The notes under the pieces were generated by a model. That model saw nothing but the letters and a program-made list of their open reading frames with translations, ran no database searches and was not told the DNA's origin. The position numbers and the translations under genes were made by a program. Positions 39,197 to 52,206 of a stretch of DNA of 64,000 nucleotides are shown here, one piece after another (the stretch's first letter is position 1; each line of letters opens with the position of its first letter). Source of the stretch: Blattabacterium cuenoti (GTDB taxonomy: Bacteria > Bacteroidota > Bacteroidia > Flavobacteriales > Blattabacteriaceae); assembly GCF_014252035.1 (NCBI RefSeq), contig NZ_CP059207.1:461578-525577 (forward strand), read 5' to 3'.

Positions 39197-39295
39197 TATT
39201 ATTATTTATGTATGATGAATAATTCAACAAAATAAGTAAAATTAAATTTTAATATACAAAAAATAATATGTATTTCGTCTATTATTATTTTTTTT

Positions 39296-40091
39296 ATGAA
39301 ATTGATTAGTTGGTGTATGATTCTTGCACTTTCTATATTTAACGATTGCATGTACAGTTTAGTTAATATTATTATAATAATAAGTGGGGTCATTGCTTTA
39401 ATCAGTATATTATTATTAATATTATTATATTCTTCTTTACCTAATAAAGATTATAATCATCCATATGGTGGTCATAAAATAGAATTTATATCTACTGCAA
39501 TAAAAGTGCTTATAACAGCTTTTGTTAATTATTTTTTAGGATTTTTATTCTGTAAAATTGTAAAAAAAAATAAATATTTAATTTTAATAGCTAGTGGTAA
39601 ACATCTTCAAATAGATACATATTCGGTATTATTATTATAGGATTATTTTTTTTAAATAAAACAAAATTTATATGGATGCAATTATTTCTATTATTTTTTC
39701 ATTTATGTATACAGGTTTGTAATTATTGAGGAATGCAACAGTAGGAATTATGGATGAATATGATAAAAATCTTTTGAAGAATTTATTTTATTATTTTAAT
39801 AAAAAAAGAAATATCTATTGGATAGATATTCATCATTTGAAAATTATTAAATATGGTAAAGATCTACATGTAGATTGTCACTTAACTATTCCATGGTATT
39901 TTATTACTATAAAAAAAGCTAATGAAGAAGTAAATAATTTAACTAAACTCACCAAAAAAAACTTTGGTTCTAAAGTAGAATTGTATGTACATGTAGATAC
40001 ATGTTCTAAAAATCATTGTATATTTTGTTTTAATAAATTATGTCAAGTAATACATAATATTTTTCAAAAAAAATCTTTTGGAATTTATTAG
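39296..40091 (+). pseudogene. Decayed cation diffusion facilitator (CDF family metal efflux)
   Basis: Pieces of one CDF transporter lie in three frames. Frame 1 (39296-39640) gives the helix segment up to NHPYGGHKIEF and ASGKHLQIDTYS, then TAG at 39638. A second frame continues with IGLFFLNKTKFIW to about 39675. A third gives DAIISIIFSFMYTGL, an in-frame TAA at 39720-39722, then RNATVGIMDEYDKN and the C-terminal cytoplasmic domain IDIHHLKIIKYGKDLHVDCHL, ending with the Bacteroidota Cys cluster (DTCSKNHCIFCFNKLC). At least two frameshifts plus one nonsense codon make a full product implausible. The N-terminus is also poorly defined; stops lie just upstream in its frame. Confidence 0.8.
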
Positions 40092-40122
40092 ATAGTACAT
40101 AAAAAATAAAAAATATATTAAT

Positions 40123-40755
40123 ATGGAATATAATACTAATCGTTTTAAATTAATTATCCCAGAATATGGAAGAAATATTCATAAAATGATATACTATGCT
40201 ATAAAAATAAAAAATAGAAAAAAAAGAAATCGTTGTGCATTAAGTATTATAAAACTGATGATATATTATACTTCGATCAATGATATCGGTATTAAAAAAA
40301 AATTGAATAAATCAATTTTTCAACACAAATTAATATGGAATCAATTATTCATAATATCTAAATACCAATTAGATATTGATACTCCATTTCCTAAACCAAA
40401 CCCAAATAAAATGGATTTTATATCATCATATAAAAAAGTGATTTATCCAAAATCATTAACTAATTTTCGATATTATGGAAAAATTATAAGGAATATGATT
40501 CATGTAGCAATTCATTGTAAAGATGAACAAAAAAAAGAAGGATTATCTTATGCTATAGCAAATACAATGAAAAAAAATTATTTAAGATGGAATAAAAATG
40601 TAGTAGAAGACGATATTATTTTTAAGGATTTAAAGAAACTTTCTAACGGAAAAATTTGTTTAACGGAAAAAACAGATACATTATTACAATGTTCTCATAT
40701 TTTAAATCCAAATAAAATATTAAAAAAAAATAAAGGGAAGAGAGTCAAAGAATAA
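40123..40755 (+). CDS. DUF4290 family protein
   Basis: Bacteroidota-specific protein of unknown function. It has 210 residues. The start MEYNTNRFKLIIPEYGRNIH is the hallmark of the family, followed by RNRCALSIIKLMIYY, HKLIWNQLFIISKYQLDIDT, PFPKPNPNK and RYYGKIIRNMIHVAIHC. It looks helical and soluble. Its stop overlaps the murA ATG by one base (TAATG), the same arrangement as in free-living relatives, so co-translation with murA is likely; a link to envelope synthesis is only inference. Confidence 0.9.
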   Translation: MEYNTNRFKLIIPEYGRNIHKMIYYAIKIKNRKKRNRCALSIIKLMIYYTSINDIGIKKKLNKSIFQHKLIWNQLFIISKYQLDIDTPFPKPNPNKMDFISSYKKVIYPKSLTNFRYYGKIIRNMIHVAIHCKDEQKKEGLSYAIANTMKKNYLRWNKNVVEDDIIFKDLKKLSNGKICLTEKTDTLLQCSHILNPNKILKKNKGKRVKE

Positions 40756-50298: not shown

Positions 50299-51195
50299 AT
50301 GAACTATTCAAAATATATATTAATATTCATTTTCAATTTATTAGCTGCAATATTTATATTATATAAAATTACTCAATTTGCATTAAAATGGGTCGATGTC
50401 TATACAAAACATGGATCTCATGTTGAGGTTCCAGAATTACGGTATATGACATTAACAGAATCTATATTAATTTTAAAGAAGTTAGGATTGAAATATAATA
50501 TAGATAAATCATATTACGATCCATCATTAGATAATGATAAAATTATTTCTTTTTTTCCAAAAGTTGGATCTCATGTCAAACAAGGAAGATTTATATACAT
50601 GAAAATAAATTCAAAACCAAATAAATATTGTAATGTTTTGCCGGATATTTTTAATAAAAAAAAAAATATAGCTATAAAATTATTACATAAAAATAATCTA
50701 TTTATTAAAGAAATAAGATATATAGAAGATGATGATATTTATAAAGATAAGATTATAAAAGTATTTTATAATAATCAATCTATTACATCAGGATATGTAT
50801 TTTGTAAAAAAAACGATGGAATTACTCTACTGATAGGAAAAAGTTTTCATAATAATCATAATATAGTTCCAAATGTTACTGGAATGCCGATAAAAATAGC
50901 TATTTCTATTTTAAAAAATAAATTTTTTAATACTGTTAATTTTTACTATGATTATCAAAATACGAATGATCATAATGCAAAAGTATATCGTCAAAAACCT
51001 GATCCTGGTACAATTTATGATAAAAATAAACCTATTGATTTATGGTTATCATTAGAAGAACCTACTACTCCTCCATTACCAATTGGAAATAATAATCCCG
51101 TCATTAATACTCCTTTAGATAAAAAACCTGTAAAAACAACTATTCTAAAAAAAAAATCAAAAAATGAAAGAAACAAAAATAAAAATCATAGTTGA
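50299..51195 (+). CDS. PASTA-domain membrane protein
   Basis: A single-pass protein with extracytoplasmic PASTA repeats, which bind peptidoglycan or its precursors in other proteins. It has 298 residues. One N-terminal helix (YILIFIFNLLAAIFILYKI) is followed by three PASTA-like modules starting at HVEVPELRYMTLTES, NVLPDIFNKKKNIAIKLL and NIVPNVTGMPIKIAISIL, each ending in a typical Lys/Pro-rich strand. There is no kinase domain. The C-terminal tail is Pro/Lys-rich. It lies between ddl and rluD, a conserved Bacteroidota neighbourhood, and overlaps the rluD-type gene by 32 bp. Confidence 0.85.
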   Translation: MNYSKYILIFIFNLLAAIFILYKITQFALKWVDVYTKHGSHVEVPELRYMTLTESILILKKLGLKYNIDKSYYDPSLDNDKIISFFPKVGSHVKQGRFIYMKINSKPNKYCNVLPDIFNKKKNIAIKLLHKNNLFIKEIRYIEDDDIYKDKIIKVFYNNQSITSGYVFCKKNDGITLLIGKSFHNNHNIVPNVTGMPIKIAISILKNKFFNTVNFYYDYQNTNDHNAKVYRQKPDPGTIYDKNKPIDLWLSLEEPTTPPLPIGNNNPVINTPLDKKPVKTTILKKKSKNERNKNKNHS

Positions 51196-52206
51196 TAAAA
51201 ATGAAAAAAAAATACGTATTGATACATTTTTAGCAAATAGAATACAAAATATTAGTAGAAATCAAATTCAAAAAGCTATGAATTCAAGTCAAGTATTAAT
51301 CAATAAAAAAACTATTAAAAAAAAAACCACAAAATTAAACCTCTAGATTCTATTGAATTATCAATTGATTCATTATTATACAATAATAATAATATCGATA
51401 ATTTAGAGTATGATAATATCATAAAAGAAAAAATGAATCTTAATATTGTTCATGAAGATGAAGATGTTATCGTAATTAATAAACCATCAGGTATTGTTGT
51501 ACATCCTGGTTACGGAAATAAAAAAGGTACATTAATTAATGGAGTAAAATATCACTTAGAAAAATATTCTAACTATAATGAAAATTTATATAGATGTGGT
51601 TTGATTCATAGACTAGATAAATATACATCAGGTTTATTGATTTTTGCAAAAAATGAATTATCTCAAAAATATTTATTAAAACAATTCCACAAAAAAATTA
51701 TCAAAAGAAAATATATAGCTTTAGCATGGGGCGATATCAATGAAAAAAAAGGAATTATAAATGGATTTATAGGAAGAGATTTGAATAATAGGAAAAGAAT
51801 GATGATATTAAAAGAAAATAAACAAAAAGGAAAGTTTTCTGTTACTCATTATAAAGTAATAAAAAGATTTCAATATATAACATATATATCTTGTGAATTA
51901 GAAACTGGAAGAACACATCAGATAAGAGCTCATTTAAAATATATAGGACATCCATTATTTAATGATTCAACATATGGAGGCAATAGAATTTTTTTCAAAA
52001 AAAAATTATCCAAAAATAATATAGATTTTTTTCATAAATGTTTAAAAATATTACAAGGACAAGCATTACATGCCATATCTATTTCTTTTATTCATCCAAA
52101 AAAAGGAAGTTGTAACTTCTATAGTCCTATTCCTAAAGATTTTGAAACAGTATTAAATAAATGTAAAAACCAATTTTATAATAATGTTCCATGTAATAAT
52201 ATATAA
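51164..52206 (+). CDS. rluD: RluD-type 23S rRNA pseudouridine synthase, interrupted by one frameshift at a 10-A run
   Basis: Large-subunit pseudouridine synthase. The S4 RNA-binding domain (IRIDTFLANRIQNISRNQIQ) is read from ATG 51164 until TAG at 51344. Removing one A from the 10-A run at 51317-51326 restores the frame: TIKKNHKIKPLDSIELSID, then the catalytic domain, also open from 51433. That domain is intact: INKPSGIVVHPGYG, HRLDKYTSGLLIFAK with the catalytic Asp, RKYIALAWG, and ELETGRTHQIRAHLKYIG. No other lesion is seen. Expression may depend on transcriptional slippage, or the catalytic domain may be made alone. RluD is favoured over RluA/C by gene order. Confidence 0.8.

Follow-up and report, generated by a model that had tools for sequence, protein, structure and literature searches.

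Frameshifts at long poly(A) tracts, and their correction by transcriptional slippage, are known from Buchnera and Blochmannia (Tamas 2008, as cited in the review PMC5009743; Williams and Wernegreen 2010, PMC3017870), the kind of precedent that the preliminary description of the locus considered here invoked. That review, in its summary of the known genes, puts corrected transcripts at 12-50%. At homopolymers, the Buchnera RNA polymerase errs chiefly by inserting single bases: such tracts account for 151 of 157 insertions but 16 of 57 deletions (PMC5574713). The same transcriptome study reports no frame-restoring transcript error. For the E. coli RNA polymerase, poly(A) rescue is almost nil in reporters with short runs (PMC6260861). 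A search of the open literature found no papers on poly-A frameshifts in Blattabacterium. Judged from its sequence, the rluD gene described below is an added Blattabacterium candidate for this kind of rescue.

The two frames of rluD

The window, that is, the whole 64,000-nucleotide stretch of DNA that was analysed, comes from the 621,526-base genome (G000) of a Blattabacterium, an endosymbiont of cockroaches; this genome was compared with 48 congeners. At window positions 51164-52206 lies the gene of an RluA-family pseudouridine synthase, with RluD as its best equivalog, in two frames that switch exactly at a run of ten A's (Table 1). As the preliminary description had it, the S4 and catalytic domains are in different frames and the other conserved motifs are intact. 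All 11 reference orthologues place the switch (from frame 2 to frame 1) at the A10 run; the single indel is confined to this long A tract and the remainder of rluD is intact. The catalytic frame, whose sole in-frame ATG is at 51433, keeps the motifs NKPSG and HRLDKYTSG and scores above the curated cut-offs for the RluA-subfamily catalytic domain (TIGR00005, 245.7 bits, cut-off 192.7; PF00849, 118 bits, cut-off 26.8). The match to the RluD equivalog, the best of its kind, reaches 205 bits, below the strict cut-off of 351, with only the catalytic part scored. The S4 domain (PF01479, 25.9 bits) is present in the other frame and hence not in the same polypeptide. An open frame of 295 codons at 24% GC with every motif kept is not random.

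Table 1. Features at and around the split rluD gene (window coordinates)
Feature	Position	Strand	Basis
PASTA-domain gene, upstream; overlaps the rluD start	50299..51195	+	
rluD upstream frame: S4 RNA-binding domain, 60 aa, ending at the frameshift stop	51164..51346	+	ATG 51164; Pfam S4 E=8e-6
A10 tract, site of the frame change; in-frame A_AAA_AAA heptamer inside	51317..51326	+	Sequence, orthologue alignment
rluD downstream frame: junction and whole catalytic domain, RluA/RluD-type	51319..52206	+	PseudoU_synth_2 4e-34, TIGR00005
Possible RNA hairpin, 14 nt 3' of the A10 run	51341..51408	+	z=-2.7

Rejoining the two frames requires one additional A (11), two fewer (8) or a -1 ribosomal shift. 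Deleting a single A, said in the preliminary description to join them perfectly, leads instead into the third frame, which reads KKKPQN and then stops; the proposal that 9 A's on resequencing would mark a simple error goes wrong with it, since the direction of the correction was wrong. With an 11-A tract, the junction aligns residue for residue with that of the sister genome G019 (KKVINRKNHKVKPLDSIEL vs KKTIKKKNHKIKPLDSIEL), which is intact at this site; in most other species the junction is one codon shorter than this 11-A length. A -1 ribosomal shift at the in-frame A_AAA_AAA would give a product identical to that made with one extra A.

The A10 shift site looks accidental and not programmed. 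The conservation among relatives that marks the slippery site of a programmed -1 ribosomal frameshift is absent, and the 25 nt upstream of the A10 run contain no Shine-Dalgarno-like sequence. The hairpin is probably not a frameshift stimulator: among 43 z scores its own comes fifth, the rest coming from relatives with an intact frame at the A10 site, whose values are similar, and a programmed frameshift with a hairpin stimulator was rejected. Runs of at least 10 A's or T's are common, 23 of them lying in frame within conserved intact ORFs of the window.

In G016, the PASTA-domain gene just upstream runs on into rluD in a single open frame of about 750-790 codons, which looks like a gene fusion. 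The PASTA gene of G019 ends in long Lys/Glu-rich tandem repeats, as do that of G009 and the one upstream of rluD in G002, and these repeats differ greatly among species.

The sister break, selection and function

A single uninterrupted S4-catalytic frame of rluD is found in 47 of the 48 congeners. The exception is G019, the sister lineage of G000 (clade support 100/98), whose rluD loses its frame at an A12 run within the catalytic domain, requires one more A and is otherwise intact. An ancestral break common to the two genomes is ruled out, the tracts being different; because they lie at different A tracts, the two breaks are independent. The A10 break itself occurs only in G000 among the 49 genomes and is not kept in related strains or species. 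Since rluD is broken in the sister too, at another A run, the frameshift is probably a real and tolerated mutation, and that this otherwise intact poly-A frameshift is real is the most likely case. The gene itself is found in all 49 genomes, the smallest of which is 511 kb.

In a six-genome tree, the share of tree length contributed by rluD stands at the 62nd percentile of 42 neighbouring genes on the G000 branch and at the 64th on the G019 branch; accelerated protein evolution of rluD is seen on neither. Between close relatives, its omega is about 0.1-0.2 (YN00), with some pairs higher by NG86. These comparisons exclude long neutral decay of rluD, but are compatible with a recent break or with rescue.

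The gene at stake is this genome's sole pseudouridine synthase gene of the RluA family. The second PF00849 gene is of RsuA/RluF type and no substitute for rluD, and the helix 69 (H69) target of 23S rRNA, CGTAACTATAACGG, is intact. Of the E. coli pseudouridine synthases, RluD alone causes a strong growth defect when deleted (PMC1190176). Because rluD is the sole gene of its family, H69 is intact and the growth effect in E. coli is strong, partial rescue is modestly favoured over clean loss. As a stand-in for function at pseudouridine 1915 we had considered rlmH, which proved uninformative: none of the 49 genomes has a match to it. Ribosomes with H69 mutations are known to show more frameshifting and read-through (O'Connor and Dahlberg, as cited in PMC1190176). 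If loss of the H69 pseudouridines acts likewise, a self-correcting loop can be imagined, in which too little RluD would raise the rate of -1 shifting at the gene's own A_AAA_AAA and so restore RluD, leaving a broken gene autoregulated and stable; we regard this as highly speculative and most improbable.

Poly-A frameshifts across Blattabacterium

The census of such breaks covered matched 60-64 kb stretches of 36 genomes, and 200 kb more each of G000 and G029. It counted A runs of 10 or longer in the sense orientation within mapped genes, the final 8% of every gene being left out; gene names other than rluD were read from the sequences and not by family search. The 36 genomes hold 589 such runs, of which 14 break an otherwise intact gene. 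Ten of these 14 breaks fall on the mere 29 runs of ung, fthC and rluD, with 4 on the 560 runs elsewhere; leuS, with 55 runs, has none. Clustering by gene is significant (p 0.004 by permutation; Fisher 1e-11, the genes having been picked after the fact), which speaks against sequencing errors scattered evenly among the runs. This distribution says that poly-A breaks persist where loss of the gene is tolerated or rescue is sufficient.

The ung gene, for uracil-DNA glycosylase, is frameshifted at one poly-A site in G007, G008 and G047 (26.6-26.9 kb of their respective stretches) and in G026 (about 25.0 kb), one more A being needed in all four; in G036 it is broken at a second poly-A tract, also of the +1-needing class. 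It is absent from seven other genomes of the 36, G000 among them; rluD and fthC are absent from none. The additional 200 kb stretches yielded breaks in ftsK, topA, an lptF/G-like and a cysJ-like gene (the latter two in G029), all +1-needing. The ftsK-like DNA translocase gene of G000 is split at an A11 run (C1:321136-321146); in G029, topA (DNA topoisomerase I) is frameshifted at A12 (C1:364226-364237) and the lptF/G-like permease gene at A11/A10 (C1:334228). All three are otherwise intact. The window also contains, at 39200-40300, a pseudogene of another kind: a decayed CDF-type cation transporter gene, intact in relatives, with internal deletions and a frameshift away from poly-A.

At runs of at least 10 A's, the frame would be restored by an extra A in 17 breaks and by the removal of one in 2 (p = 0.0007), or the split is 17 vs 3 with the decayed feoB added (p = 0.003); both p values are somewhat optimistic, since the four ung breaks at one site are perhaps not independent. 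Because Buchnera homopolymer errors are mostly insertions, the +1 class is the one open to rescue by polymerase slippage or a -1 ribosomal shift. The excess fits insertion-biased slippage of RNA polymerase; replication contraction or sequencing undercalls would yield an equal one.

Explanations and known systems

Our preferred explanation, held tentatively and at just short of an even chance, is a real contraction of the tract, tolerated by way of some full-length enzyme that arises through RNA polymerase slippage, with or without ribosomal shifting. The poly-A tract of rluD would have shortened from its 11-A length to 10 A's; RNA polymerase would add one A in a fraction of rluD transcripts, -1 ribosomal slippage at the in-frame A_AAA_AAA might contribute, and enough full-length RluD would still be made for the break to be tolerated. 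Transcript slippage, sufficiency of the product and modification of helix 69 are candidate steps. The preliminary description's choice of rluD as a slippage candidate was reasonable in all but its direction, and is supported by the independent sister break, the intact frames of the other congeners, the lack of acceleration and the need for an added A. Against the preferred explanation stand the lack of frame-restoring transcript errors in Buchnera, the near absence of poly(A) rescue in the short-run E. coli reporters, the other possible sources of the direction bias, and the distribution of poly-A breaks, which are enriched in ung, a gene that relatives have lost outright, yet do not occur in leuS. 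The same enrichment in ung, fthC and rluD, and the absence of ung from a fifth or so of the genomes, would be expected of an early pseudogene: constraint would have relaxed in the G000/G019 lineage, each genome would have fixed its own recent poly-A indel, and slippage would yield no useful enzyme. Two independent rluD breaks in sister lineages with none in 47 others, and a genuine decayed transporter pseudogene nearby in G000, speak for this reading, which we find doubtful though deserving of weight; neither rluD gene has a second lesion or faster protein evolution on its branch, none of the 49 genomes has lost rluD, and like breaks are found in genes that are usually essential (G000 ftsK; topA and the lptF/G-like gene of G029).

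An error of assembly or sequencing, the true tract being frame-keeping with 11 A's or 8, is unlikely. Homopolymer undercalls give exactly the +1-needing class that makes up 17 of the 19-20 cases, but the 23 other long A or T runs of the window are in frame within intact genes, breaks are distributed non-randomly over runs, and rluD is also broken in the sister genome. Least probable of these rivals, and very improbable to our minds, is a split gene whose catalytic domain is translated alone from the ATG at 51433 and suffices without S4. RluA and TruC function without an S4 domain, and an in-frame ATG does open the catalytic domain; however, S4 is still fused in 47 of 47 intact relatives and the G019 break, being inside the catalytic domain, would go unexplained.

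The count of endosymbiont genes as alive or dead hinges on poly-A frameshifts. The rluD gene, its sister and about 20 such Blattabacterium genes, ftsK and topA included, are a testable set from a third symbiont lineage, in another phylum. Real rescue would mean that pseudogene counts and gene-loss histories drawn from such genomes carry a bias; should there be no rescue, RluD is on its way out even though its effect on E. coli fitness is strong.

Three known systems offer themselves for comparison with the split rluD. Like the programmed frameshifts of dnaX and IS elements, the site has A_AAA_AAA and a long A tract, allowing both RNA polymerase slippage and -1 shifting; unlike them it is unconserved and lacks a Shine-Dalgarno-like sequence just upstream, and its hairpin is unexceptional. 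With E. coli RluD, the 23S rRNA pseudouridine 1911/1915/1917 synthase, the gene shares the S4 and RluA-type catalytic domains, its best equivalog match and an intact H69 target; it differs in the frame broken at A10 and in the score of its catalytic part, below the strict cut-off. Buchnera and Blochmannia frameshifts at poly(A) tracts resemble it in that an AT-rich insect endosymbiont carries one indel in a long run of A's, in a gene that is otherwise intact and not accelerated. Frequencies are similar: 4-8 genes per Buchnera or Blochmannia genome, and 2 in the approximately 264 kb covered of G000, which scales to roughly 5 per genome. Independent breakage of one gene in a sister lineage also has its parallel, ytfM showing the same pattern (PMC3017870). 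The Blattabacterium case differs in its phylum, Bacteroidota, and in the gene concerned, rluD.
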